Positions 39,564 to 54,646 of a DNA stretch of 64,000 nt are shown piece by piece (the stretch's first letter is position 1; every line of letters starts with the position of its first letter). Origin of the DNA: Anaerolinea sp. GTDB taxonomy: Bacteria > Chloroflexota > Limnocylindria > Limnocylindrales > CSP1-4. The position numbers were made by a program, and so were the translations under genes. The stretch is from contig PNKK01000006.1 of assembly GCA_013822395.1 (NCBI GenBank), forward strand, positions 1-64,000, given 5' to 3'. Under the pieces are notes generated by a model. That model saw only the letters and a program-made list of their open reading frames with translations, was not told where the DNA came from and ran no database searches.

Positions 39564-40013
39564 ATGACTCGATCCCCCATGCGAGTCGCGGGCGCGCTCG
39601 CGACGGCTGTCATCTTGGCTGCCGTGGCCGGCGGATGTGGCCAGCAAAGCGACGAGTCACCGCTGATGTCGTTGCGACGGGAGCTGCCTGAGGGCACCAC
39701 GCTTCTCTTGCCGAGCACCGAACCTCCCTCTCTGGTTGACGCGGCCCTTACTTCGGGAGACGGCACGCCAATCATCAGCTTCTACTCGGTCAACCAGCCC
39801 ATCGTTTCGGTCTGCGAGGCACCGGCGGATCGGTGTCTCAAGTTGCTGCCGACCGCCCAGGTGATCCCTCGCATCAACTCAGATGGCGACGTCACCGTGC
39901 TGGTCGAGGCGCAGGAGAATGGCGTCCACATGACGCTGTCGGACGAGCTCACTCGCTACTGGTCGGAGGTCGATCTGGTTGCAGGCAGGCCTGCCTGGCT
40001 CGACGCTCCCTGA
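39564..40013 (+). CDS. Small lipoprotein of unknown function
   Basis: Signal + lipobox AVAGGC; locally AT-richer than neighbours. Confidence 0.5.
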   Translation: MTRSPMRVAGALATAVILAAVAGGCGQQSDESPLMSLRRELPEGTTLLLPSTEPPSLVDAALTSGDGTPIISFYSVNQPIVSVCEAPADRCLKLLPTAQVIPRINSDGDVTVLVEAQENGVHMTLSDELTRYWSEVDLVAGRPAWLDAP

Positions 40014-40272
40014 ACTCGTGGATCGGGGGCCCCGAACCGTTGTACCAAGTGAAGAAGTCGGCGCAGAAGGCCTGGGCGTCCTCGATTGAGCCGAACCGGT
40101 CGGGAGAGCCCGGCCGGTACTCGAGCGTCTTGAACTGGGCCTCGCTGTACGAGCTGTCGTCGCTGACATGGGGCCGGGAGTGGCTCTTGGCCACGCCGAG
40201 GTCGGCCAGCAGGAGGGCGACCGGCTTGGAGCGCATCGAGGAGCCCCGGTCGGCATGGACGGTCAGGGTGCC
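40014..40272 (-). pseudogene. IS3-type transposase OrfB/integrase C-terminal fragment
   Basis: LTVHADRGSSMRSKPVALLLADLGVAKSHSRPHVSDDSSYSEAQFKTLEYRPGSPDRFGSIEDAQAFCADFFTWYN; both ends truncated. Confidence 0.85.
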
Positions 40273-40277
40273 TGGTC

Positions 40278-40343
40278 GCGACGCAACCATTGGCACATTT
40301 CGCAGCGACGCAACCGCTGGCACGATCGCCATCGGATCGTGCC
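40278..40343. repeat. Short direct repeat pair plus 9-bp hairpin next to IS fragment
   Basis: gcgacgcaaccattggcac / gcgacgcaaccgctggcac; ggcacgatc-gccatcg-gatcgtgcc. Confidence 0.7.
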
Positions 40344-40380
40344 CTTCGTCAAGAGGATGCGGCCATTCGTCAAAAGGGCG

Positions 40381-40457
40381 TGGCGCGCCCGGAGGGATTC
40401 GAACCCCCGACCCTGTGGTCCGAAGCCACATGCTCTGGTCCGCTGAGCTACGGGCGC
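40381..40457 (-). tRNA. tRNA-Arg(TCG), CCA end encoded
   Basis: Minus strand gcgcccgtagctcagcggaccagagcatgtggcttcggaccacagggtcgggggttcgaatccctccgggcgcgCCA; acceptor, anticodon and T arms fold; loop CTTCGGA gives TCG. Confidence 0.93.
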
Positions 40458-40620
40458 ACGGAGGACAAGGGTAGCAGCCCCGCCGCCTGAGCCTGCGATC
40501 CCTCTTGATGCCTGGCGGTCCCGCTCTTGCCGGTCTGCAGCCTGCCGGGTACCTTGGCCGTGCTGCTTTCCGGAGAAGCGGTTGGTGCCGCCCCAGATCG
40601 GCGGCACGGGGAGGGCTGCC

Positions 40621-41028
40621 ATGACGACCGGGAGCGGGACCAAGGCTGATCCGTGGACGCTGAAGACGGCGCCCGGAACGGCCCAGTACCAGATGTGGCG
40701 CGACGAGGCCGCGGATCCGCCGGCGCTCGTCTGCCAGGTCGGGTCCACGCAGCTCAGATACCACCTGCGCGCGATCGAGGACCTCCACGCGATGCTCAAG
40801 GCCCACGGCGACTGGATCGCCCTGGGCGCCGCGGACGAGCAGAAGCCGGTGGCGGACGGGACGGTCGAGGCCTGGGGACGCTCGGCGGGCAACCCGGTTG
40901 GAGGGTGGTATGGCCTCCGAAAGGGCTACCGCGGCCGCTTCGGGATGTACCTGCCGCCACTCCTCGAGGTGCTCGGGCTCGCGGAGCTCACCCACGACCC
41001 GAAGAACAACCGGGTGCGGGCCCGGTGA
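40621..41028 (+). CDS. Conserved hypothetical protein (DUF6855-like)
   Basis: MTTGSGTKADPWTLKTAPGTAQYQMWRDE...GWYGLRKGYRGRFGMYLPPLLEVLGL. Confidence 0.6.
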   Translation: MTTGSGTKADPWTLKTAPGTAQYQMWRDEAADPPALVCQVGSTQLRYHLRAIEDLHAMLKAHGDWIALGAADEQKPVADGTVEAWGRSAGNPVGGWYGLRKGYRGRFGMYLPPLLEVLGLAELTHDPKNNRVRAR

Positions 41029-41345
41029 TGCCGGTCAAGCTCGCCTGAGTCGACACGCGGCGAACCGCTCCTCCCGTCGTCCGTCCCACCTCCGAGTCGG
41101 CAGAGGACGCATCTGCCGTTCGACCGAGCGTGACGCGCTGCGCGATCTGGCGTTGTGGACCGCCTGTCATGCGTGGTCGTGCACGGAATGCCCTCGGATG
41201 CGACGCAATCGGGGCGGCGCGGCGACGGAACCGGGGCGGCGCGGCGACCGCCGGCAGGCGGTTCGTTCACGGCCTCTGAGCTTGAGGCTGCCGCTCGGAC
41301 AGCCATCCTGAGCCCGACGCCGGAGGAACGCGCGGCCACGGCCGA

Positions 41346-42752
41346 TCAACCGAGCCGGCGGTAGCGCCGTGCGATCAGGGCATAGCCGGGCACCCGGGGG
41401 ACCGCCCGCGACAGGGGCACGACCGAGCCATCGCGTCCCTCGACCGTGAGCAGTAGCGCCGCCGCCGCGTCGCCCATCCGAGCGTCCACCGTGGCGAGAT
41501 CGATCGCCACGCCGCCCGGCTCCTCGGTGCCCAGCATCGCGACCTCCGCCGTGGGAAACGCACCATCTTCGAACGAGGCGCGGATCTCGGCCTCGGCACG
41601 CCAGCGCGGCCGGCGAAGGAGGATCCCGCGCCAGCCCTCGGCGATCGCCGGTGAGACTCGCCCGTCGCCGGGCCGCTCATCACCGTTCCGCGCCACCGCC
41701 TCGCCGCGCGCCCACCGGGCGGCCTGGTGGAGCAGGGCGTACTCATCGAGATCGGCGTACGAGGCAAGCTCGTCCACCGGCGAGGCGTCGCCGAAGAGCG
41801 CTCGGATGGACGGCGCGAAGACCTCCGCGAGGTCGAGGTCGATGGCCCGCACGGTCCGGTGGAAGTAGACCTGCTGGTGGAGGAGCAGCCGCGCCCCAAG
41901 GAACCCCTCGAGCGCCGGCACACCCGGCTCGTAGACCGTCAGACCCCGCTCGGAGACGTAGGCATATCGCCGGAGCCGCTCCACGTCGATCCCGACGCGG
42001 ACACCGGTGAAGAAGGCGTCGCGGCGGACGTAGTCCAGGTTGTCGACCGTGAAGACGCCGGACAGGAGTGGCTGGAGGACCCGGATCCAGGCCGGCATGG
42101 ACGGATCCGTGAGGGCCGGCTTCGAGACGAGGAACGAGACCCAACGCGGATCGATCGACTCGCCGCCGGCGAACGCGTCGCGCTCCGGCACGGTGCCGGG
42201 CGCCCGCCGGAGTCCGGCGATGAGCGGCCCGAGCTCGCGCTCGATGATCAGCTGGCTCAGGTCCTCGTGGGAGAGCGACTTGCCCGCAGGCCGCCGCGGG
42301 TCGGCCGGCGCCGGGAAGGTGGCCAGGACCCGGTCGTCGAAGAAGTGGGCGAACGGCCCGTGGCCCACGTCGTGCAGGAGCCCGGCGACGCGGAGGGTCT
42401 CGACGACGAGCCCCTCCGACGGCAGGACCTCCCCGGGTGCCAGCACGGTCAGCGCGCTCCGCAGGGACGGGTAGAGGGTCCGCCCCCACAGGCCAGCCTC
42501 GTGCATCACCCCGAGGCCATGCGTGAATCGGGAGTGCTCTGCCGTCGGAAACACCCATCGGGCGCTCTGGAGCTGACTGATCCGCCGGAGGCGCTGAAGC
42601 CAGGCGGTGTCGAGGAGGTCATCCTCGGCGACATCCTCGGTCGCCAGCCCGGCCGCCGCAGCCTCGTCGGGCGCGAGTCGCTTCGTCAGCTCGACATAGC
42701 CGTGGATCGGGTCGCTGATGAGGTTGACCGCCGAGAACGGGTGGAGCGCCAC
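41346..42752 (-). CDS. HD-domain phosphohydrolase (dNTPase-like)
   Basis: DPIHGYVELT, HSRFTHGLGVMHEAG, LLHDVGHGPFAHFFDD. Confidence 0.9.
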   Translation of the reverse strand: MALHPFSAVNLISDPIHGYVELTKRLAPDEAAAAGLATEDVAEDDLLDTAWLQRLRRISQLQSARWVFPTAEHSRFTHGLGVMHEAGLWGRTLYPSLRSALTVLAPGEVLPSEGLVVETLRVAGLLHDVGHGPFAHFFDDRVLATFPAPADPRRPAGKSLSHEDLSQLIIERELGPLIAGLRRAPGTVPERDAFAGGESIDPRWVSFLVSKPALTDPSMPAWIRVLQPLLSGVFTVDNLDYVRRDAFFTGVRVGIDVERLRRYAYVSERGLTVYEPGVPALEGFLGARLLLHQQVYFHRTVRAIDLDLAEVFAPSIRALFGDASPVDELASYADLDEYALLHQAARWARGEAVARNGDERPGDGRVSPAIAEGWRGILLRRPRWRAEAEIRASFEDGAFPTAEVAMLGTEEPGGVAIDLATVDARMGDAAAALLLTVEGRDGSVVPLSRAVPRVPGYALIARRYRRLG

Positions 42753-42755
42753 GGC

Positions 42756-43451
42756 TCAGAGCAGGATCGGGCGAATCCGGGAAAACGTGACGAAGGCAGG
42801 ATCTGGCTCAGGGGTCGGAGCCGGAGTGGGTCGGAGCGTGGGAGCCGGTGTCGGCCGCGGTGTCGGCCGCGGTGTCGGCCGCGGTGTCGGCGCAGGTTTG
42901 GGACGAGGGGTCGCGGCGATCGTCCTGGGCGCATCGATGAGGATCGCGCTCGCGTACGTGACGCCGTTGGTCGCACGGAGGGCGACGCCGACCCCGATGG
43001 TGTCCAGCCGAGGGTTCATCAGGATGTCCCAGTGAGGTGGGCTGTCGCGCCAGGATTCGAACACGATCCGTGCCGCCTGGTCGCCCCACGGGTACGTATT
43101 CGAGGCGAGATTCTCGCCGAACAGGTCCCAGCCGATGCCCCGGTCCGATAGCTGGCAGCTCAGGCAGCCGGCGGCGGTGTGCGACAGCTGGTCATTCGAG
43201 GCGAGCATTGCCGCGCGGTCGCCTGCCAGGGCGGTGAGGCGCGCGTCAGCACGGAGACTGCCGAGGCCGTTCCGCGCCCGGGCGTCGTTGATCCAGCGAA
43301 CGATGCTCGCCTCCATCGTCTCGGCCGTTCCGGCGCTCGCGGGGATTGCGGGGCTGAGCGGAGCCAGTCCTGACGCGAGGACGAGCGCAAGGACGCCCGC
43401 CGCGAGGGTCGAACGCCGAGGGATGCGCGGTACGAGGGCACGTCGCCGCAT
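42756..43451 (-). CDS. CAP/SCP-domain secreted protein with PTPRPTP tail
   Basis: Signal peptide; WINDARARNGLGSLRADARLTALAGDRAAMLASNDQLSHTA...GENLASN...FESWRDSPPHWDILMNPRLDTIGVGVAL. Confidence 0.92.
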   Translation of the reverse strand: MRRRALVPRIPRRSTLAAGVLALVLASGLAPLSPAIPASAGTAETMEASIVRWINDARARNGLGSLRADARLTALAGDRAAMLASNDQLSHTAAGCLSCQLSDRGIGWDLFGENLASNTYPWGDQAARIVFESWRDSPPHWDILMNPRLDTIGVGVALRATNGVTYASAILIDAPRTIAATPRPKPAPTPRPTPRPTPRPTPAPTLRPTPAPTPEPDPAFVTFSRIRPILL

Positions 43452-43561
43452 GGTCCGCGAAGGGTACCCCAACCAGCGGGCAACCTGCCCCGGCCGATCT
43501 CGTCGCTCGCGCGCGGGTGCCCGCTTGCCGGACCCGGACCCTCAAGCCCGCGTGCCGGACC

Positions 43562-44560
43562 TCAAGCCCGGTCGAGCGCGCGCCGGTACGTCGCCCGGAG
43601 GTCCTCGCGGAGCGCCGCGGGAGCGAGAACCTCCACTTCGTCGCCCCACGAGAGGACCCATAGCCGGACCTCGATCGTCCCGCTGACCGTCGCGCGCCAC
43701 ACGAGCGAACCGTCCGCCTGGGGCTCGAGCTGCTGGCTCGGGTGCCAGACCGTCTCGGCGACCCGGCCGGCGACTTCGGGCACGAACCGGAGCATGACCT
43801 CCGTCGCCGGCTGGTCGGCGATGATGTCCCAGGCTTGGCGGAGCATCGTCTCGATCGTCCCGGGCTCGGGTGGCTCGAAGCGCCGTGGCGTGACGGTCAC
43901 GGTGCGGATCCGCTCGATCTTGAACGTTCGCAGCCCCTGCCGGCCCTCGTCGTACCCGATCAGGTAGAGCGCGTGGGTCTGCGCGGACGGTTCGATGAGG
44001 TAGGGCCGGACGGTCGCCCGGCGCGCCGTCCGGGTCCGGCCCTCGTACCGGGCGGCCGCGTAGTCGATCTCGACGACTCGCTGCTCCGCCCAGGCGCGGG
44101 TGAGGACATGGACGTGGTCGACGAAGGCCGGGTCGCGCCTTGCTCGCTGGAGGACGTCGAGCGAGCGTGCGACGTGCTCGGTCAGGGGTGCCGGCAGGCC
44201 CTCGGCGAGCTTCTCGAACGCCGACGCGAGGTCGGGGTCGTACTTGTCGGCATAGCGGACCATCAGGCGCGTGGCGAGAAAGACCGCCATCGCCTCCGAC
44301 GTCGTCAGCTTGAGCGGCGGCAGGAACGCTGCGTCGAGAATCCCCCAGCGCCCCCTGTCTGACCAGGTCGGCATGGCCAGCTCGCCCTCGAGCGCCACGA
44401 GGTCGCGGTAGGCGGTCCGGCGCGAGATCCCGAGGCGCTGGGCGAGGTCCTCGGCACGGATTCCGTCGGGGTGGGCCTTCAGGACGTTCGCGACACGAAG
44501 GAGGCGCGCGCCCCGATCGCGCTTCGCGTTGGACCCGCCCTCGTCGTCGAACTCGGCCAT
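43562..44560 (-). CDS. WYL-domain HTH transcriptional regulator
   Basis: IRAEDLAQRLGISRRTAYRDLVALEGELAMPTW HTH; WYL-type core; SD ggagg before ATG. Confidence 0.9.
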   Translation of the reverse strand: MAEFDDEGGSNAKRDRGARLLRVANVLKAHPDGIRAEDLAQRLGISRRTAYRDLVALEGELAMPTWSDRGRWGILDAAFLPPLKLTTSEAMAVFLATRLMVRYADKYDPDLASAFEKLAEGLPAPLTEHVARSLDVLQRARRDPAFVDHVHVLTRAWAEQRVVEIDYAAARYEGRTRTARRATVRPYLIEPSAQTHALYLIGYDEGRQGLRTFKIERIRTVTVTPRRFEPPEPGTIETMLRQAWDIIADQPATEVMLRFVPEVAGRVAETVWHPSQQLEPQADGSLVWRATVSGTIEVRLWVLSWGDEVEVLAPAALREDLRATYRRALDRA

Positions 44561-44818
44561 CGTGCCTCCAGGCTCCGAGGATACCCGGGCGGCCGCGGCG
44601 AAGGCGCCGCGAGCACCGGACGCGAGCGTACTCCAACGTGCGTGGGCGTTCGGAGGCGCAGCGGCAACGACCGCCCCGGCCGCCCGACCCGCCACAAGTA
44701 CCGGGGGCACCGGGACCCCCGGGTCATCGCCGGACCATGACCCCTGACCGACCATGACCGCACCGAACCGACCGGGACGAACCCGGCGGCGGGATGACGA
44801 GGGACGCGAGCAGGTTCC

Positions 44819-45076
44819 ATGGCCACGCGGGACCCGGACCACGGCTTCGCAACGCGGGCGACGTATCGCGCGCTGCTCGTCCGCGGGTTCGCCCCGGGCG
44901 AGGCCGCGAACCTGACGGCGTACCTCGCCGGGATCGAGGTCGGGCAGGGCCGCCCGTGGCGCCTCGCCGACATCGACCGCCTGCTCTTCCTCCGCGAGCT
45001 CTGCCGGACCGGCCGCCTCGGCGCGGACGACGGCCTCGCTCCCTCGCCCGTGGCCGCTGGCACCGGCTCCGCCTGA
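44819..45076 (+). CDS. Small conserved hypothetical protein
   Basis: MATRDPDHGFATRATYRALLVRGFAPGEAANLTAYLAGIEVGQGRPWRLADIDRLLFLREL. Confidence 0.55.
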   Translation: MATRDPDHGFATRATYRALLVRGFAPGEAANLTAYLAGIEVGQGRPWRLADIDRLLFLRELCRTGRLGADDGLAPSPVAAGTGSA

Positions 45077-45138
45077 CGGCAGCATCAGAAACATCCGCCG
45101 GCTTGCGGCGCCCCTCCTCCCGCCGGCCGGCGCTCTAC

Positions 45139-45180
45139 CGAAGCGGCGCCCCTCCTCCTCCGGGCGCCGCTTCGGGTTTT
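45139..45180 (+). terminator. Intrinsic terminator
   Basis: 13-bp stem cgaagcggcgccc/gggcgccgcttcg followed by ggtttt. Confidence 0.85.
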
Positions 45181-45191
45181 CGACGCTTCGG

Positions 45192-45197
45192 TACCAT
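45192..45197 (+). promoter_or_regulatory. -10 like TACCAT, 8 nt before ATG
   Basis: TANNNT pattern shared by many operon-leading genes here. Confidence 0.5.
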
Positions 45198-45205
45198 CGC
45201 GGGTC

Positions 45206-46036
45206 ATGGATCGGCCCGTCATCAGCTTCCTCAGCGACTTCGGCCCGGAGTCCGCGCCCGCGATCTGCCGCGGGGTAATGCTGTCGATCGCCCGCGACGC
45301 CCAGATCGTCGATATCAGCCACAGCGTCCGGAAGTTCGCGATCCGCGACGGCGCCTATCTCCTCTGGACGGCCGTTCCCTGGTTGCCCGTCGGGACCCAC
45401 GTCGCCGTCGTGGATCCCGGTGTCGGGACGTTCCGCCTGCCGATCGGGATTCAGGTGGCGCGCGGGGACGTCCTGATCGGCCCGGACAACGGGGTGCTCA
45501 TACCGGCCGCAGTTGCACTTGGCGGGGTGGTGGAGGCCCGGGTCCTCGAGAACCGGGACCTGATGCTGCCGCGGGCGACCTCCACGTTCCACGGCCGGGA
45601 CATCTTCGCACCGGTCGCAGCCCATCTCGCCACCGGCCGCCCATTTGAGGACGTCGGGTCGGTGGTCGACGTCGACGCGCTCGTCCAGCTGGACTTCCCG
45701 GCTCCGGTCGCCGCGGACGGCGGCCTGGACTCCCTGGTCCTGTACATCGATTCGTTCGGCAACCTCCGGCTGTCCGGGTCGGCGCAGGACCTGGAGGCCG
45801 TCGCCGGGTCGCTGGCACCCGGCCGGCCGTTCACCGTGGAGTTCCCTGCGCAGGCCGGCCGGCCGGCGGTCCGCGAGACGATGCCCTGGTGCCGGACCTT
45901 TGGGGAGCGACCGGTCGGGGCGCCGCTCCTCTACGAGAACTCCTTCGGCCAACTGGCAATCGCCGACAACCAGGGAAATGCTGCTGCCCGCCTCGGGATC
46001 GATCCCGAGCGTCCCGTCCGCATCCGCCCCGCGTGA
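45206..46036 (+). CDS. SAM hydroxide adenosyltransferase (DUF62 family), copy 1
   Basis: ISFLSDFGPES, VVDPGVGTFR, IGPDNGVL, FHGRDIFAPVAAHLA. Confidence 0.93.
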   Translation: MDRPVISFLSDFGPESAPAICRGVMLSIARDAQIVDISHSVRKFAIRDGAYLLWTAVPWLPVGTHVAVVDPGVGTFRLPIGIQVARGDVLIGPDNGVLIPAAVALGGVVEARVLENRDLMLPRATSTFHGRDIFAPVAAHLATGRPFEDVGSVVDVDALVQLDFPAPVAADGGLDSLVLYIDSFGNLRLSGSAQDLEAVAGSLAPGRPFTVEFPAQAGRPAVRETMPWCRTFGERPVGAPLLYENSFGQLAIADNQGNAAARLGIDPERPVRIRPA

Positions 46037-46044
46037 CGACACCC

Positions 46045-46872
46045 ATGCCGCGTCCCGTCATCACCTTCACCACCGACTTCGGGCCCGCCGCTCCGGCCGT
46101 CTGCCGCGGTGTGATGTACCGGATCGCGCCGGACGCGCTGATCATCGACATCAACCATCAGGTCCCGCGCTACTCGATCCGGGACGGTGCGGGCACGCTT
46201 GTCTTCGCCCTCCCGTACATGCCGATCGGCGTCCACGTGGCGGTCGTGGACCCGGGCGTCGGGACGGAGCGGCGCGCGGTCGCGCTCAAGGTCGCCCGTG
46301 GCGACATCCTCGTCGGGCCGGACAACGGGTTGCTCCTGCCGGCCGCGGAGCGACTGGGCGGGGTCGTGGCGGCCCATGCGCTCGACAACCGGGATCTCAT
46401 GCTCCCGGTCGTTACGAACAGCTTTCACGGGCGCGACGTGTTCGCCCCGATCGCTGCCCACCTTGCGATGGGCACGCCGATCGAGGCAGTTGGCCGGGCT
46501 ATCGACCCCGCGACTCTCGTCCATTTGGAGGCCCCACGGCCGACGATCCGCGTCGGCGAGCTCGTGAGCCAGATCGTCCAGGTCCTCATCTTCGGCAACG
46601 TCACCTTCGCGGGCACCACCGCCGATCTGCAGGCCGCGATCGGACCGCTTGCGCCCGGGCATCGCGTCACCCTCGAGTTCCCGGCCCACGACGGCCGGCC
46701 CGCGGTGACGGAGGCGACTGTTTGGGAGCGGACGTTCGGGAGCGTCCCGCTGGGTGCGTCGCTCCTGATGGAGGACTCGGAGGGACACCTTTCGTTCGCC
46801 GACAATCAGGGCAACGCGGCGGAGCGCCTGGGGCTCGCCCTCGACCGCCCGGTCCGCATCCGCCCGACCTGA
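46045..46872 (+). CDS. SAM hydroxide adenosyltransferase (DUF62 family), copy 2
   Basis: ITFTTDFGPAAP, VVDPGVGTERR, VGPDNGLLLPA, FHGRDVFAPIAAHLA. Confidence 0.93.
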   Translation: MPRPVITFTTDFGPAAPAVCRGVMYRIAPDALIIDINHQVPRYSIRDGAGTLVFALPYMPIGVHVAVVDPGVGTERRAVALKVARGDILVGPDNGLLLPAAERLGGVVAAHALDNRDLMLPVVTNSFHGRDVFAPIAAHLAMGTPIEAVGRAIDPATLVHLEAPRPTIRVGELVSQIVQVLIFGNVTFAGTTADLQAAIGPLAPGHRVTLEFPAHDGRPAVTEATVWERTFGSVPLGASLLMEDSEGHLSFADNQGNAAERLGLALDRPVRIRPT

Positions 46873-46894
46873 CGGACCCGGGAGACACCGGCCT

Positions 46895-48598
46895 ATGGCG
46901 GAACCGATCGTCGAGATCGAAGGGCTCACGTTCCGTTACCGGCGGGCGACCCAGCCGGCGATCCGGGACATCCACCTCTCGATCGAGCCCGGCGAGGTCC
47001 TTCTCATTGCCGGCCCGTCCGGCTGCGGCAAGAGCACGCTCATCCGCTCGATCAACGGGTTGATCCCGCATGCCTACCCGGGCGAGCTCGCCGGGATCGT
47101 TCGCGTGGCGGGCAAGCCGACGACGGAGCAGCGCCTGCGCGATATCTCGCGGTTCATTGGCACGGTCCTTCAGGACCCGGCGAAGCAGATCGTCGGGGCG
47201 ACCGTGGAGTCCGAGCTCGCCTTCGGGCCGGAGAACCTCGGCATCGAGCGGGCTGAGATCCGGCGCCGGATCGGTGACGTCGCGGAACGTGCCGGGATCC
47301 GGCTGCTGCTGGGACGGGAGACTTCGGCGCTCTCTGGTGGAGAACGGCAGCTCCTCGCGATAGGCGGGATCCTCATGCTCGAGCCGAGGCTCTACGTCGT
47401 TGACGAGCCCCTCGCGAACCTCGACCCGGCAACCGCCGCCCGGCTCCTCGGCATCCTCCGTGCGCTCGCTGACGAGGGACACGGGGTCGTGATCGTGGAG
47501 CACCGCGTCGAGGAGGCGCTCGACCTCCGCCCGGACCGCGTCCTCTACCTCGAGGAGGGTGTGGCGCGCTACCTGGGCGATGTGCCGGGCTTTCTCCGGA
47601 TCGCCGACCCCTCTGCGGTCAAGCTCCCGTTCGCGGCCGTCCTGGACCGGTTCCGGTCTGATCCGGCCCTGGCCGGATCAGACCGCGCGGGCAGCACCCC
47701 GGCGCGCCGCGTCCGCTCGGCCCTGACGGACGGCGCCCCTCCGCGCCTGGAGTACGCGGGCGTTCGGGCCGGTTACGGGGACCTGGAGATCCTCCACGGC
47801 ATCGACGTGTGCCTGGGCCGCCGCGAGATCGTCGCCGTGCTGGGCCCGAACGGCTCGGGGAAGACCACGCTCTTCCGGGCGGCGATGCGTCTCATTCCAA
47901 CGACGGCGGGCGAGATGCGAGTGGACGGCGAGAGCGTGGCCGCCCGGACCGTTGCCCAGCTCGCCTCGACGTTCGGGTATGTCTTTCAGAGTCCCAGCCA
48001 GATGCTGTTCGCCCGGACCGTACGGGAAGAGCTTGTCTTCGGGCCGCGCAACCTCGGCCGATCACCCGGGTCGTTCGATTCGATCGTCGCCGCGGCGCTC
48101 CGCCGAACGTCGCTCGACCAGCTCGAGGGCATCCTGGATCGGCCGCCGCTCACCCTGTCCTTTGGCCAGCAGAAGCGTCTCGCGCTCGCGATCGCGCTGG
48201 CTCTCGAGCCGCCGACGCTCATTCTCGACGAGCCTTCCGCGGGCCAGGATCACCGGACAGCTCGGCAATTCCTGCGCGAGGCCCTCGCGGTCCCGGACCT
48301 CGAATCGATCTACCTCGTGACCCACGACGTGGACCTTGCATTGACGCTCGCAGACCGTATCCTGCTGTTCAAGGACGGACAGGTCGTCGCTGACGGACCG
48401 CCCGCTCTCGTGGTCGAGGACGAGGATCGCTGGATCGCGTGCAACCTTCGCCTGACATCCCTGATGCGCGCCAACGCCCGTTGGGGGCGCCGGGACGACG
48501 GGTTCGTGGATGCTGAGACGCTCGCCGCCCGAGTCCTCTGGGACGTCGAGAGTGGCCCGAGCCAGGGGGAAGGAGGATCGGCCGTCGGGGCTGGTTGA
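46895..48598 (+). CDS. ECF transporter ATPase, two fused ABC domains
   Basis: Two Walker A motifs (GPSGCGKSTLIR, GPNGSGKTTLFR), LSGGERQLLAIGG and LSFGQQKRLALAIAL signatures. Confidence 0.95.
   Translation: MAEPIVEIEGLTFRYRRATQPAIRDIHLSIEPGEVLLIAGPSGCGKSTLIRSINGLIPHAYPGELAGIVRVAGKPTTEQRLRDISRFIGTVLQDPAKQIVGATVESELAFGPENLGIERAEIRRRIGDVAERAGIRLLLGRETSALSGGERQLLAIGGILMLEPRLYVVDEPLANLDPATAARLLGILRALADEGHGVVIVEHRVEEALDLRPDRVLYLEEGVARYLGDVPGFLRIADPSAVKLPFAAVLDRFRSDPALAGSDRAGSTPARRVRSALTDGAPPRLEYAGVRAGYGDLEILHGIDVCLGRREIVAVLGPNGSGKTTLFRAAMRLIPTTAGEMRVDGESVAARTVAQLASTFGYVFQSPSQMLFARTVREELVFGPRNLGRSPGSFDSIVAAALRRTSLDQLEGILDRPPLTLSFGQQKRLALAIALALEPPTLILDEPSAGQDHRTARQFLREALAVPDLESIYLVTHDVDLALTLADRILLFKDGQVVADGPPALVVEDEDRWIACNLRLTSLMRANARWGRRDDGFVDAETLAARVLWDVESGPSQGEGGSAVGAG
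47654..47685. repeat. Perfect 14-bp inverted repeat, 4-nt loop, inside ABC linker
   Basis: cggtctgatccggc-cctg-gccggatcagaccg. Confidence 0.9.
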
Positions 48599-48638
48599 CC
48601 GTTTGTCACTCGAAATGGGGTATCCAAGGAGGGATCGG

Positions 48639-49202
48639 ATGTCCTCGATGTCTTCGTTCGCGTCACGCTCCATGTGGAGCGTCGACTCCCGGACGATCGT
48701 CTACGCTGCCATCGGCGCCGCGCTGTACGGTGTGCTCGCGCTGTTCAGCGTGGTCATCCCGGGCTCGAACAACGTCTCCGTGCGACCGGCCTTCGCGATC
48801 GTGCCGTTCTTCGGCTACGCGTTCGGCCCGGTCGTCGGGTTGTTCACGGGCCTGGTTGGCAACGCCATCGTCGATCAGCTCAGCGGCTACGGGCTCCTGA
48901 CGGCCTGGAACTGGCACATCGCCAACGGCCTCGTGGGTCTGCTCGCGGGCATCTTCGCCGCGAGCTCCATCGCCCGCCTGGGCGGGAGCAAGATCATCGG
49001 AGCCGCCGCGGTCGCCGCGCTCTCGGTGGCCATCGGCATGCTCTTCGTCTTCTCGGACATGGTCGTCTTCGGCAACGACTTCAACACGGCGCTCACGGGC
49101 AGCTACCTGTGGGTCCTCGTGCCGGATCTCATCGCGGGGGTGATCCTGGTGCCGATCCTCGCCCTGGCTTGGGAGCCCTTGAAGGAATCGCTCGGTCGCT
49201 GA
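48639..49202 (+). CDS. ECF transporter S component
   Basis: Multi-TM protein VRPAFAIVPFFGYAFGPVVGLFTGLVGNAIVDQLSGYGLLTAWNWHIANGLVGLLAGI; position between EcfA-like and EcfT-like genes. Confidence 0.88.
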   Translation: MSSMSSFASRSMWSVDSRTIVYAAIGAALYGVLALFSVVIPGSNNVSVRPAFAIVPFFGYAFGPVVGLFTGLVGNAIVDQLSGYGLLTAWNWHIANGLVGLLAGIFAASSIARLGGSKIIGAAAVAALSVAIGMLFVFSDMVVFGNDFNTALTGSYLWVLVPDLIAGVILVPILALAWEPLKESLGR

Positions 49203-49223
49203 CGGCCGCATGACTGCCGTGCG

Positions 49224-50078
49224 GTGATCGCCACCCCGCGCTATCTCGGTCGGGGGTCGTGGCTCGGGCGTCGCGACCCCCGCGTCCCGCTGCTCGTCGG
49301 GGTGCTGACAGCGGCGACGGTGATCCAGATCTGGGACATCCGGATCATTGCGATCCTGTTCATCATCGGCCAGCTGTACTACCGGTCCGCGGCGATCCCG
49401 TTCCGGCTCGTCCGCAGGCAATGGGCGTTCGCGATCGTCTTCGTGTCGATCCTCGTCGTGGTCAACACGGTCCTGACCGGCGGCGCGATCGGGGACTATG
49501 ACCGCTCGGACCTCCACCCACTGTTCTACCTGCCGCTGCTCGGGACCCCGATCTCGGCGGAGTCGCTCAGCTACGGCGCCACCCAGCTCCTCCGGTTCCT
49601 GACCTTCATCACGATCGGTTTCCCGATCGCCTATGCGATCGCACCGAGTGACCTTGGCCCCGCGCTCGCCCGGCTCCGGATCCCGGAGAAGTTCGCGTTC
49701 GGGGTGGACCTGACGTACCGGTTCATTCCGTCTCTCGCGGCCGATCTCCAGGAGACGATCGACGCACAGCGCGTCCGAGGCTACGAGTGGGATCGCGTCA
49801 GGGGTGGCCCGGTCGCCCGAATCCGGCGTGCCATTCCACTGATGGTCCCGTTGACGATGAACGCGATCGTCGGTGCGGAGGACACGATCGACGCGATGGA
49901 CCTCCGGGGCTTCGGGACCGGCAGGCGGACCTGGCTTCGAGAGCTCCGCTACGACCGGGCGGACCGCCTCCTTGTCGGCACCGCCATCGCGATCCTGGTC
50001 GCCGCAACCGTGGCGTCGTTCGCCGGTCTCACGAAACTCTGGGTATTTCCTCTGCTCCTCGCGCTCGCCGGCGCATGA
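49224..50078 (+). CDS. ECF transporter transmembrane component EcfT-like
   Basis: RFIPSLAADLQETIDAQRVRGYEWD and DTIDAMDLRGFGTGRRTWL coupling-helix motifs. Confidence 0.92.
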   Translation: MIATPRYLGRGSWLGRRDPRVPLLVGVLTAATVIQIWDIRIIAILFIIGQLYYRSAAIPFRLVRRQWAFAIVFVSILVVVNTVLTGGAIGDYDRSDLHPLFYLPLLGTPISAESLSYGATQLLRFLTFITIGFPIAYAIAPSDLGPALARLRIPEKFAFGVDLTYRFIPSLAADLQETIDAQRVRGYEWDRVRGGPVARIRRAIPLMVPLTMNAIVGAEDTIDAMDLRGFGTGRRTWLRELRYDRADRLLVGTAIAILVAATVASFAGLTKLWVFPLLLALAGA

Positions 50079-50203
50079 CCGCGGCCGTTGTCGCTGTGTG
50101 ATTCTGAGCTGAGCCAGGGGTGCCCCGTCGACGCGAGGCGCCGGGCGCCAGGCGCCAGGCCGAGATCGCTCTTGAACCGTATGCACGTCAGCGGCAACGT
50201 GGT

Positions 50204-50770
50204 TCAGCCGCCCGCCGGGCCCGGGCTGGGCGTCGGCGGGCCCGGGCTGGGCGTCGGCGGGCCCGGGCTGGGCGTCGGCGGGCCCGGGCTGGGCGTCGGC
50301 GGGTTCGCGTCGTCGACCTTCGTTCCGGGGATGAGGACGAGCACCCAGCCGGGCTCGATGTGGTTCGGGTCGTAGCCTGCGGACTCGGGGTCGAGGGATG
50401 GGTACGATCCACGATTCCACCAGGCGAGACTCCGAGCGGAGGTGTCGAAGGCCCGGGCAACGGAGGTCAGGCTGTCGCCCGCCCGAACGACGTAGCTCGT
50501 GAACGTTGGCGCCGGGGTCGGTGTCGGCCGGATGAAGCTCGGAAGTGGGATGGGAGTCGGGGAGCCGGCCGGTGTCGCGCCCGTCGCGCCGGGGGAGGCA
50601 CCGGGGGTGGGTGAAGCCGGTGCGGCCGGCAGGAGCCCTGGGATCAGGACGATCGCCGCGGCGAGTGCAACGAGGACGATCGCGAGCGACGCGGCCGTCG
50701 CGGGGGTGGCAAGGGGATTGCCGTGCCGCGAGGTGCCGGGTGGCCGGAGGGTGGACTCGGGCTGGCCCAT
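50204..50770 (-). CDS. LysM-domain membrane/secreted protein
   Basis: TM segment; YVVRAGDSLTSVARAFDTSARSLAWWN LysM; (PPTPSPG)4 tail. Confidence 0.9.
   Translation of the reverse strand: MGQPESTLRPPGTSRHGNPLATPATAASLAIVLVALAAAIVLIPGLLPAAPASPTPGASPGATGATPAGSPTPIPLPSFIRPTPTPAPTFTSYVVRAGDSLTSVARAFDTSARSLAWWNRGSYPSLDPESAGYDPNHIEPGWVLVLIPGTKVDDANPPTPSPGPPTPSPGPPTPSPGPPTPSPGPAGG
50216..50301. repeat. 21-bp tandem repeat (gggcccgggctgggcgtcggc x4)
   Basis: Four near-identical units encoding PPTPSPG on the minus strand. Confidence 0.92.
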
Positions 50771-50836
50771 GGGTGCCAGTCTGACGTGGGTCCGGGCCGC
50801 GGAGTTGCGAGCCGGTCGATGATGCGAGGCCGCTTC

Positions 50837-53803
50837 TCAGCGCGTGGTCGGCGCGGCGGGCTCGCCCGCCGGCGAGAAATCGATCGGCGTCGGCACCTGG
50901 AGCGTGAACTCGCCGGCGAGGGCGAGGCCCTCGACGGCGGTCGCCACGCGCCCACCGCCACCCCGCTTGGCCACGAAACAGGCGCGGTCCGCCGCGAGGA
51001 GGATCTCGTCCGGCGTCGCGCCGTCCGTGGGGTACGTGGCCACGCCGGCCGAGGCATCCAGGTGAAGCCCGGCCCGATGGAAGCCGGACCCGGGCCCGAC
51101 CACGCCGCCGATCGCGCTGCAGATGCGCTGGGCGACCGGCCCCGCGTGGGCGGCGTCCGTGCCCGCCAGAATGACCGCGAACTCGTCGCCGCCGTACCGG
51201 AAGGCCGCATCGGTCTCGCGGCTGGCGCCGACGATCGCCGCCGCGACCTGCTTCAGGAGGTCGTTCCCGGCCGAGTGCCCGTACGTGTCGTTCACCAACT
51301 TGAACCGGTCGAGATCGATCATCAGGATGCTGAACGGCGCCTCGCTCTCGACCGCCGCCGCGAGCCGCTCGCGGAAGCTGCCGTGGTTCAGGAGTCCGGT
51401 GAGGTCGTCCGTCTGTGCGCGCTGGGCAAGTGCGCCGTGCACCTGCGCGTTCTGGAGGGCGATCGAGACCTGCGCCGCGAAGAGCTTGACGAGCTCGAAC
51501 TCCTCGTCCGTGAAGATCCGCTCCTCGCCCATCCTCTCCAGGGTCAGGATCCCGATCGAGCGATCGCGGCCTCGGAGCGGGACGCACATCAGGCTGCCGT
51601 GAATCGGTCCGGACGTGCCATGCCGGACGCGCAGATCGGTGTACTGGTCGGGCACCAGGGTGGGCTCGTTGTGGGCCACAACCCAGGTGGCGAGGCCATG
51701 CTCCCCAGGCTCGAACGGTCGCAGGTAGGACTCGGCGTCGGCGCCCTTGGCGATCACCGGCATCAGCGCACCGCGGCCGTCGAGGAGCGCGATCGCGATG
51801 CTGTCCCAGCCGACGAGCTCGCCCAGGCGGTCGGCGACGGCGTCGAGGATGGAGTGAACATCGAGCGTTGTCAGGATGGATTCCGTGATCAGGAGCAGGT
51901 CGCGCTGGCTCTGGACCTGCCGCTCGAGCGCGGCGGACTGGCGGCGGAGCCGCTCGGTGGCGTCGGCGTTGGCCATGGCCTGCGCGGCGAAGCTCGCGTA
52001 GATCTCGAGGAGCCGGAGGTCGTCGTCGCGGAACTGGCGCAGCCCGAGCTTCGAGAGGACGAGGACGCCGAGGACCTGGTCCTCGTAGAGCATCGGCGCG
52101 AGGAGCATCGACTCGTCGAGGTCGGCCTCGGTGCCTGGGATCGTGTTGCCCCGCGGGTCCGCGGCCGCGTCGTGAAGGATCTGCGCGACCCGGTGCTCGG
52201 CGACCCAGCCGGTGATTCCCGACCCGACCTTGACCCGGAGGCGCTCCGGCGTCTCGTCGACGTACTCGCCGACCTGGCCTTTCATCGCGACCGGGACCAG
52301 GTCGTCGCCGTCGAGGCGGTAGACCCGCACGTTGTGATAGTCGATCAGCTGGCGAAGCTCGGTGGCGATCGTTGCCCCGATCTCCTGGACGGTCGACAGC
52401 CGGCTCAGACGCGCGCCGAGCTGCTGGATCGACCGGAGCTGCGCCGCCCACGTCGCGAGCTGCGCGTAGGCGCGAGCCGTCCGGATCGCGACCGACGCCT
52501 GGGTCGCAAGCGAGCCCAGCGTGTCGACCTCGTCGTCGCTCCAGTGATGCGGCCGGTCGTGGTAGATGTTCAGGCTGCCCAGCAGCTCGCCATCCGGGCC
52601 GTCGAACAGGGGGGCCACGCAGAGCGTGTCGAAGCCTTCCTGGACCACGGCCGCGCGGATCTCCGCGGCGCGCGGGTCGTCCCGGAACCCCATTGAGAAG
52701 ACAGGCCCACCGATTGCCACCGCCGAGTTGATGAGCGACCGGCTGGTCGCCGGCGAGATGGCCGCGAGGTACGACGCCGACAGGCCGCGTGAGGTGGCCG
52801 CCCGCCGTGAGCCGTCCGGCTGGTAGACGAGCACGGACGCCCGGTCGCCACCGAGGAGGACCATCGCATGGTCGACGAGACCGGCGAGGATCTGGTCCAG
52901 GTCGAGGCGGCTACCGATGTCACCGGCCACCCGCCGCAGAGCTTCGGCACGATGGAGCTGACGGGCGATGTGGGCGGCGGCCGACGCCGCCGAGATGATC
53001 GTCCCCAGGGCACCGGCGGCGGCGGCGATCAGGTCTCGCAGCTCGTTCGTGGCCGGCGCGTCCGTCTCCGCGACCGCGAGGAGCACGCCCCACGGCCCAT
53101 CGGCACCCGGGATCGCGGCGGCGAGCTCGCGACCACGGAGCCCGGAGGCGGAGAGCGAGACCCCAGGATCCGCGTCCGCGACGCTGCCCGGGGCGTCCAG
53201 CGCCGCGCCGAGGACGCCGATTCCGCACGGGAGCTCGACGAGGCGGGCGTCCGGCGGCCCGGAGACACCGACAGGCGTCAGGCGATCGCCGCGAAGTCGC
53301 CAGGCCGATACCAGGCGGAGGCCGGCCCCCTCGCCGATCGCCTGCGTCGCCGAACCGAGCAGGATCTCGGGATCCACGACCTCGCTGATGACCGAGGACG
53401 CGATCCGCCCGAGGGCGGCCAGGACCCTCAGGCCGGCCCGATGCGCGCCCGGCCCCGGCGCCGCGACCTCAAGGGTGGTGCGCAGGCCGGGACGACGGCC
53501 TGGCAACCCGGCGATCGCGGTCGTCGCCCGCCTGGAGTTGCCATGCCGGCTCCGGCGGAGACGCCCCGCTCCGCGGGAGGCGGGCTCGGGCTCCGGCCCT
53601 CCGGCCGCGTTCGACAGGTAGCGCTGGAGATCCCCGAGGCGGTAGCGGCGGTCGCCGCGAGGATTGATCCGGTAGTAACGGAGTCGGCCGGCGTCGCTCC
53701 ACGCTCGGATCGTGTTCGGATGGACGCCCAGCACCTGGGCGGCCTTCGTGACGGTGAGTGTCGCGTCGGCCGGTCGCGGATGGAGCTGGGCGATCGTGGA
53801 CAC
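50837..53803 (-). CDS. MerR/excisionase-type HTH + multiple GAF + GGDEF protein
   Basis: TVTKAAQVLGVHPNTIRAWSDAGRLRYYRINPRGDRRYRLGDLQRYL; GAF-like segments; FRYGGDEFAVILAGTD. Confidence 0.93.
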   Translation of the reverse strand: MSTIAQLHPRPADATLTVTKAAQVLGVHPNTIRAWSDAGRLRYYRINPRGDRRYRLGDLQRYLSNAAGGPEPEPASRGAGRLRRSRHGNSRRATTAIAGLPGRRPGLRTTLEVAAPGPGAHRAGLRVLAALGRIASSVISEVVDPEILLGSATQAIGEGAGLRLVSAWRLRGDRLTPVGVSGPPDARLVELPCGIGVLGAALDAPGSVADADPGVSLSASGLRGRELAAAIPGADGPWGVLLAVAETDAPATNELRDLIAAAAGALGTIISAASAAAHIARQLHRAEALRRVAGDIGSRLDLDQILAGLVDHAMVLLGGDRASVLVYQPDGSRRAATSRGLSASYLAAISPATSRSLINSAVAIGGPVFSMGFRDDPRAAEIRAAVVQEGFDTLCVAPLFDGPDGELLGSLNIYHDRPHHWSDDEVDTLGSLATQASVAIRTARAYAQLATWAAQLRSIQQLGARLSRLSTVQEIGATIATELRQLIDYHNVRVYRLDGDDLVPVAMKGQVGEYVDETPERLRVKVGSGITGWVAEHRVAQILHDAAADPRGNTIPGTEADLDESMLLAPMLYEDQVLGVLVLSKLGLRQFRDDDLRLLEIYASFAAQAMANADATERLRRQSAALERQVQSQRDLLLITESILTTLDVHSILDAVADRLGELVGWDSIAIALLDGRGALMPVIAKGADAESYLRPFEPGEHGLATWVVAHNEPTLVPDQYTDLRVRHGTSGPIHGSLMCVPLRGRDRSIGILTLERMGEERIFTDEEFELVKLFAAQVSIALQNAQVHGALAQRAQTDDLTGLLNHGSFRERLAAAVESEAPFSILMIDLDRFKLVNDTYGHSAGNDLLKQVAAAIVGASRETDAAFRYGGDEFAVILAGTDAAHAGPVAQRICSAIGGVVGPGSGFHRAGLHLDASAGVATYPTDGATPDEILLAADRACFVAKRGGGGRVATAVEGLALAGEFTLQVPTPIDFSPAGEPAAPTTR

Positions 53804-53836
53804 CGGTTCCTCGGGAGGATTTGTGAAGTCGTGACA

Positions 53837-54646
53837 TCACTCTACGAACCCCACAGATCTTGCCAATAGGACGAAGGTCCCATTGGCGTCCGGCGCGCCG
53901 GACCGAGGCACCTCTGCGGCCGCCTCCGGCTTCTGGGGAAACGGCATCAGGAAGAGGACGAGCCCGACCAGGACGAGCACCCCCGCTGCGAAGAGCAGGG
54001 CGGCGGCGAGCCGCTGACGGGCCGCGAAATCGACGGCGAGGATCCGCCTGGCCTCGGCCGGCTCGAGGGTGCACAGGATCAGCGGCCGCCCACGACCCGG
54101 CCCCAGGCGTGGCTGCCCGGACGGGTCGATTGTCGGGACGCCGAGGGCGATCGCGTGCTCAACGCTCGATACGTGCTCCACCACGACCCGGGCCGGGAGA
54201 TCGTGGGGCAGATCGTCCGGCGCCCGGTCCTCGAGGTCGCCGACGACACCGACGCTCTCACGAGGGATCACGACCAGTCCCTCCGCGACGGACTCGCCGT
54301 CGATGGCGATCGCGTCCAGCCCCTCCCGGATCTCGAACGGCACCACCTCGCGGACGACCTCCAGGTCCGTCCAGCGGCCGTCCCGCTGCGCCTGGATGCG
54401 GGTCCGCCGGAGGACGAGCGGGCGGTGGTCGGCGTCCTCGAAGTCGGCCTCGCTGTCGATCCGGCCGTCGATCCGGACGTACACGGCTCGACCGGCTCGG
54501 GCGAGGGCGACGGCCTCGGCGACGGTGACCCTGGGCGCGGCCGTCAGGAGGCGCCCGACGCGGTACCGGGGTCCGAACGATCGGAGGATCCCGATCGCCG
54601 CGCCGAGCGCAAGGAGGCCGGCGAGGATCGAGATGAGGGCATCCAC
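53837..54646 (-). CDS. Membrane protein resembling the GIDE domain family
   Basis: TM at both ends; ALARAGRAVYVRIDGRIDSEADFEDADHRPLVLRRTRIQ...EREVVPFEI-like core; GTG start 8 nt after TATCAT. Confidence 0.5.
   Translation of the reverse strand: MDALISILAGLLALGAAIGILRSFGPRYRVGRLLTAAPRVTVAEAVALARAGRAVYVRIDGRIDSEADFEDADHRPLVLRRTRIQAQRDGRWTDLEVVREVVPFEIREGLDAIAIDGESVAEGLVVIPRESVGVVGDLEDRAPDDLPHDLPARVVVEHVSSVEHAIALGVPTIDPSGQPRLGPGRGRPLILCTLEPAEARRILAVDFAARQRLAAALLFAAGVLVLVGLVLFLMPFPQKPEAAAEVPRSGAPDANGTFVLLARSVGFVE

Follow-up and report, generated by a model that had tools for sequence, protein, structure and literature searches.

Why should genes for two SAM hydrolase-like enzymes stand in one operon with a complete ECF importer, and what would that importer carry? 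The reason why cells retain a SAM-splitting enzyme is an acknowledged open question (PMC12120602). We approached both questions through a five-gene operon in the window (the whole 64,000-nucleotide stretch of DNA that was analysed) and through the related loci in other genomes.

Gene content and boundaries of the operon

The ORF calls place all five genes on the + strand, between 45206 and 50078, with 8 to 40 nt separating neighbours. The first two, DUF62a (45206-46036, 276 aa) and DUF62b (46045-46872, 275 aa), encode SAM hydrolase-like paralogues (SAM hydroxide adenosyltransferases) that share 59% identity. Both matched PF01887 (E values of 1.7e-44 and 1.6e-44, respectively) and PF20257 (5.9e-17 for DUF62a), and in both the SAM_HAT_N and SAM_HAT_C domains scored above the curated Pfam cut-off. 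They are the sole PF01887 matches in the window genome, a draft assembly of 2.9 Mb (70% complete). The third gene (46895-48598, 567 aa) encodes EcfAA', a fused double ABC ATPase with two ABC_tran domains whose top NCBIfam matches are ECF ATPases. It is followed by an S component of the PF07155/UPF0397 family (48639-49202, 187 aa), with an E value of 6.9e-19 and 68.9 bits against a gathering score of 26.7, and by the transmembrane component EcfT (49224-50078, 284 aa, GTG start; PF02361, E value of 6.9e-23). The original prediction of two adjacent DUF62 paralogues carrying the D-R-H motif set, with a complete ECF importer behind them in the same orientation, was thus borne out.

The same prediction had placed a terminator and a TACCAT box ahead of the block, and both elements are present. 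A GC-rich hairpin on the + strand (45140-45173), followed by GGGTTTT, is the probable terminator of an upstream small ORF, and a similar hairpin occupies the equivalent position in most relatives of the family. The TACCAT sequence (45192-45197, + strand) lies 8 nt 5' of the DUF62a ATG and is a candidate -10 box. It was found, exactly or as a near match, just 5' of the start codon in most relatives, including those with another type of importer, and would fit the -10 box of a leaderless mRNA. Also 5' of the operon, at 44819-45076, is a conserved 85-aa ORF of unknown family, the synteny of which is held in most relatives. On the other side, the gene of the downstream LysM-like protein contains a GC-rich short tandem repeat (GGCGGGCCCGGGCTGGGCGTC) at 50220-50300, in the part for its Pro-rich C-terminal tail.

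Linkage of DUF62 to importers

We surveyed 151 genomes of the class, 22 of which carried a PF07155 match above the cut-off. The S gene adjoined DUF62 in 16 of the 22 cases; in four more the cassette was interrupted by a contig end, and the remaining two S genes were without a neighbouring A or T gene. By our own estimate for a 2.5-Mb genome, chance would place about 0.1 of 22 S genes within 5 kb of DUF62. The linkage of DUF62 to ECF genes is not due to chance. An E. faecium plasmid carries the order DUF62-S-AA'-T, flanked by copies of IS1216, and the order recurs in a S. aureus-like sequence that was deposited as phage. In S. aureus, the S component and DUF62 carry consecutive locus tags (PMC13210130). 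The E. faecium DUF62 belongs to a branch of the tree distant from that of the window, which implies either two origins of the linkage or an old linkage that has since been rearranged. The neighbourhood survey therefore revealed the co-conservation on which the original prediction depended, across families of the class and again in Bacilli. Each partner also occurs alone: DUF62 without an adjacent importer in E. coli, Listeria and several relatives, and the ECF cassette without DUF62 in E. faecalis, Lactobacillus, Vibrio and Cetobacterium.

A few further loci were inspected. At locus L127, an additional ECF ATPase and T gene in the vicinity of DUF62 were rejected as a linked cassette, since about 2.7 kb and other genes intervene; by eye, one of the intervening genes is thiamine pyrophosphokinase-like. 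A single scan of viral contigs gave no matches. Two records filed as Staphylococcus/Enterococcus phage (OR849865.1 and OR846611.1) look like bacterial chromosome and call for caution. Separately, for S. aureus adapting to silver nanoparticles, selective sweeps that affect the S component were described, along with mutations at the DUF62/YceI locus (KQ76_RS13825/KQ76_RS13830; PMC13210130).

Within the window family, the locus is arranged as WYL regulator, small ORF, DUF62, importer, LysM protein and GAF-GGDEF protein. The importer slot is filled by the ECF cassette in some genomes and, in others, by a binding protein of SBP family 3 (SBP3) with a HisM-type permease and a GlnQ-type ATPase. The SBP3-linked DUF62 proteins of two loci (L119 and L120) nest within the ECF-linked DUF62a group with 99/99 support, indicating that the importer was exchanged within the genus. 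An SBP3 system also lies 3' of DUF62 in Actinomadura, in Spongiactinospora and in two further families, the reduced-genome family f2 and family f4. The replacement is an amino-acid-type ABC importer, with components that most resemble those of cystine, glutamine and ectoine systems. A single Arg and a single Asp are retained in all 16 SBP3 proteins compared, and both fall in columns that are likewise conserved in amino-acid binding proteins; we take them to be the carboxylate and amine contacts. The swap and these invariant residues favor a substrate bearing an amino-acid end, and they disfavor adenosine. An AF2 model of the SBP3 protein, built from five sequences, reached a pLDDT of 43 and was set aside.

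The two DUF62 paralogues

The Asp-Arg-His triad of DUF62 enzymes (D68-R75-H127) and the Asp of the IDxxFGN motif, which is conserved across DUF62 enzymes and halogenases, have been described previously (PMC4859513). The triad was intact in DUF62a, DUF62b and every DUF62 compared. The FGN-motif Asp is kept in DUF62a and replaced by Leu in DUF62b; among the other aligned proteins, exceptions are confined to the DUF62b branch (Leu or Met) and to L121, an ECF-linked singleton with Ala. Presumably, this Asp contacts the methionine amine. The DUF62b branch comprises seven rows with 100/100 support in the tree and eight rows in the wider comparison of headgroup residues, and one more b-type case lacking the Asp was seen in a further set of relatives. 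In family f4, the DUF62 copy adjoining an ECF ATPase is without a Ser that aligns to S269 of FlA, which is among the listed SAM- and fluoride-binding residues of that enzyme (PMC3999930). The Ser column is a weaker marker than the Asp because it is also variable in some unlinked actinobacterial loci. Altered headgroup residues were present in 16 of the 31 ECF-linked rows and in none of the SBP3-linked (24) or unlinked (11) rows; as the tree requires just about three independent changes, this association is a pattern and not proof. Judging from its residues, DUF62b may act on a SAM derivative.

The two paralogues had also been proposed to form a heteromer. We found no support for an obligate form, which is unlikely because some ECF operons carry the b-type copy alone (L128 and L171) and others the a-type copy alone. 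With respect to known enzyme families, the window pair scored 147 and 141 bits on the (R)-SAM hydrolase equivalog NF058624 (cut-off, 350) and 105 and 111 bits on NF053629 (cut-off, 470). Neither protein falls among the SAM-dependent halogenases, as the triad is unreplaced and the fluorinase model gave 64 bits against a cut-off of 400.

Several damaged DUF62 copies were encountered among the loci. In a close relative, DUF62b is broken by a single in-frame stop (L033:8869-9486, the same as locus L125:6328-6945), reflecting recent decay or a sequencing error. The first DUF62 of the pair at L117:6103-6858 lacks part of the N-terminal domain, its match beginning at profile position 64. In E. coli KE47, the annotation lists the DUF62 beside yigE and uvrD (L155:8149-9051) as a pseudogene, interrupted by an internal stop.

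Candidate substrates of the importer

The operon contains dedicated A, A', S and T genes, the arrangement that defines Group I ECF transporters, and this arrangement is kept in relatives. An AF2 model of the S component (pLDDT, 84.4) matched S-component structures. Its top PDB match was a chain of a folate ECF transporter (E value of 9e-4), followed by TmRibU, FolT and ThiT, with TM scores of about 0.5 to 0.6. Modelling against known S components thus established the fold but singled out no substrate, since the model resembles S components of several vitamin transporters to a similar degree. Searches of PDB with the sequence of the S component and with its alignment gave no significant match, and a search with the E. 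faecium S component returned spurious matches only.

The regulation of DUF62 in Bacilli offers a further clue. Rfam detected a T-box immediately ahead of the operon in E. faecium (110.5 bits) and another immediately ahead of DUF62 in Listeria (107.4 bits), and the specifier loop is GAA-A-AUG-G in both. Read by the general T-box rule, the AUG specifier is probably that of methionine, and the T-box would sense Met. The same E. faecium plasmid provides an internal check, in that the T-box of an amino acid permease and mmuM (homocysteine S-methyltransferase) also has AUG-G. The searches at Chloroflexota loci and around the S. aureus DUF62 detected neither riboswitches nor T-boxes.

The metabolism of the relatives also bears on the substrate. 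Family f2, a sister genus, is represented by 19 reduced genomes of about 1.1 Mb with a mean completeness of 79%. The C-terminal domain of the bacterial SAM synthetase (metK) was detected in 2 of the 19 and the archaeal SAM synthetase in none; at this completeness, the probability of detecting metK in no more than two genomes is 7e-11. The SAM-dependent methyltransferase RsmH was present in 17 of these genomes and DUF62 in 15. From the rarity of metK and the retention of RsmH, most members of this genus probably require external SAM, and their DUF62-linked SBP3 importer is a candidate supplier. One of the two metK-bearing genomes has DUF62 and the other does not. The occurrence of metK in this genus is patchy, both copies lying on contigs of genus-like GC content. 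In the window genus, metK was found in 12 of 13 genomes (one match partial), and SAM import is therefore not essential there. The methionine synthase activation domain was detected in 1 of the 13, and MetE gave weak partial matches only; the scoring used two families, and divergent or split forms could escape it. The scarcity of these markers makes a methionine shortage in the window genus plausible, without establishing it.

Because of the co-conservation, the importer swap, the Bacilli T-boxes and the loss of metK in a genus with a DUF62-linked ABC importer, we favor, with about even confidence, the reading that the operon serves to salvage S-adenosyl-sulfonium compounds, likeliest SAM itself; both the T-box and the metK findings were made in relatives rather than in the window. 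The S component would bind the compound, and EcfAA' and EcfT would power its uptake. The DUF62 enzymes would then hydrolyze the imported compound to methionine and adenosine, with DUF62b perhaps handling a SAM derivative whose amino-acid end is altered. The substrate pool would include the (R,S)-epimer, which arises spontaneously from SAM. StDUF62 prefers (R,S)-SAM, and the authors of that study doubt that this is its physiological role (PMC12120602); if the window enzymes share this preference, the (S,S) form would be used and the spoiled form recycled. The original prediction of a pathway for SAM, adenosine or a related compound accordingly stood for SAM or a relative, on the evidence of the importer swap, the T-boxes and the metK losses, and not for adenosine, the swapped-in binding protein being of the amino-acid type.

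A broader version can be put forward only tentatively, and we consider it somewhat improbable as a whole. It holds that import and cleavage form a widespread route for SAM and its altered forms, with DUF62 as the intracellular half and with interchangeable ECF and SBP-dependent ABC importers. The importer would supply SAM in the mostly metK-less, reduced-genome genus, and the DUF62b branch would have shifted to derivatives with an altered amino-acid end, e.g., deaminated or decarboxylated forms.

The main rival is that the importer carries methionine or a precursor while DUF62 separately hydrolyzes internal SAM, the two being linked only as joint answers to methionine shortage. AUG-type T-boxes precede DUF62 both with the ECF genes (E. 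faecium) and without them (Listeria), the importer exchanged for the ECF cassette has cystine, glutamine and ectoine systems as its nearest kin, and methionine synthase markers are scarce in the window genus. However, this explanation accounts neither for the DUF62-linked importer kept by a mostly metK-less genus with reduced genomes nor for SAM breakdown in a cell needing SAM, and we judge it unlikely, if still a serious contender. It is improbable that the ECF importer carries a nucleoside (adenosine or methylthioadenosine), with DUF62 on the other side of a shared purine and methionine salvage. Adenosine is a product of DUF62, and ECF S components usually transport small vitamins and similar compounds; against this, sister genomes replace the ECF cassette by an importer whose amino-acid-family binding protein has the invariant Arg and Asp, and no purine gene was noted beside the operon in the loci read. 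Uptake of riboflavin or a thiamine precursor through the S component, with DUF62 as an unrelated passenger, is very improbable: PF07155 and NCBIfam label the family as riboflavin transporters, but the 79.1 bits of the window protein on the riboflavin model PRK13661 are under its curated cut-off of 99, no FMN riboswitch was found in the window at 40000-54000 or in the related loci searched, FMN and TPP riboswitches alike were absent from all loci searched, and most of the surveyed S genes adjoin DUF62.

The DUF62-importer operon, the swap, the probable Met leader and the mostly metK-less sister genus together yield a concrete hypothesis of SAM salvage for DUF62. If true, SAM salvage would assign a substrate to the UPF0397 ECF family, for which the riboflavin name is unsupported here, and would describe SAM importers of both the ECF and the SBP type. 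To our knowledge, no SAM importer of either type has been described. In the literature we found no transport link between DUF62 and ECF genes; earlier work on methionine regulons and ECF transporters may already predict a methionine-linked ECF system.

Compared with known systems, the importer resembles the Group I ECF vitamin transporters in its dedicated module and S-component fold, and differs in that its S component has no significant sequence match to solved ones. The polar amino acid ABC importers (SBP family 3, HisM and GlnQ) fill the ECF slot after DUF62 in sister genomes; unlike the ECF cassette, they employ an extracytoplasmic binding protein, and they are nonhomologous to the ECF S and T components. 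FlA and SalL, the SAM-dependent halogenases, belong to a common superfamily with the window pair (phmmer E values down to 5e-39), but they lack the triad, SalL having Tyr, Thr and Tyr in those columns, whereas the window pair retains it. Both Pfam domains and the triad are shared with PH0463 and StDUF62, which are SAM hydroxide adenosyltransferases/(R,S)-SAM hydrolases, and the reaction of the window enzymes is presumably the same (SAM to adenosine and methionine); in contrast to those enzymes, they form a tandem pair within an importer operon, and DUF62b is without the IDxxFGN Asp. The DUF62-UPF0397 operons of E. faecium and S. aureus likewise unite the four gene types in a single operon, in the order DUF62-S-AA'-T rather than DUF62-DUF62-AA'-S-T, and that of E. 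faecium adds a T-box leader and a DUF62 from a distant branch.
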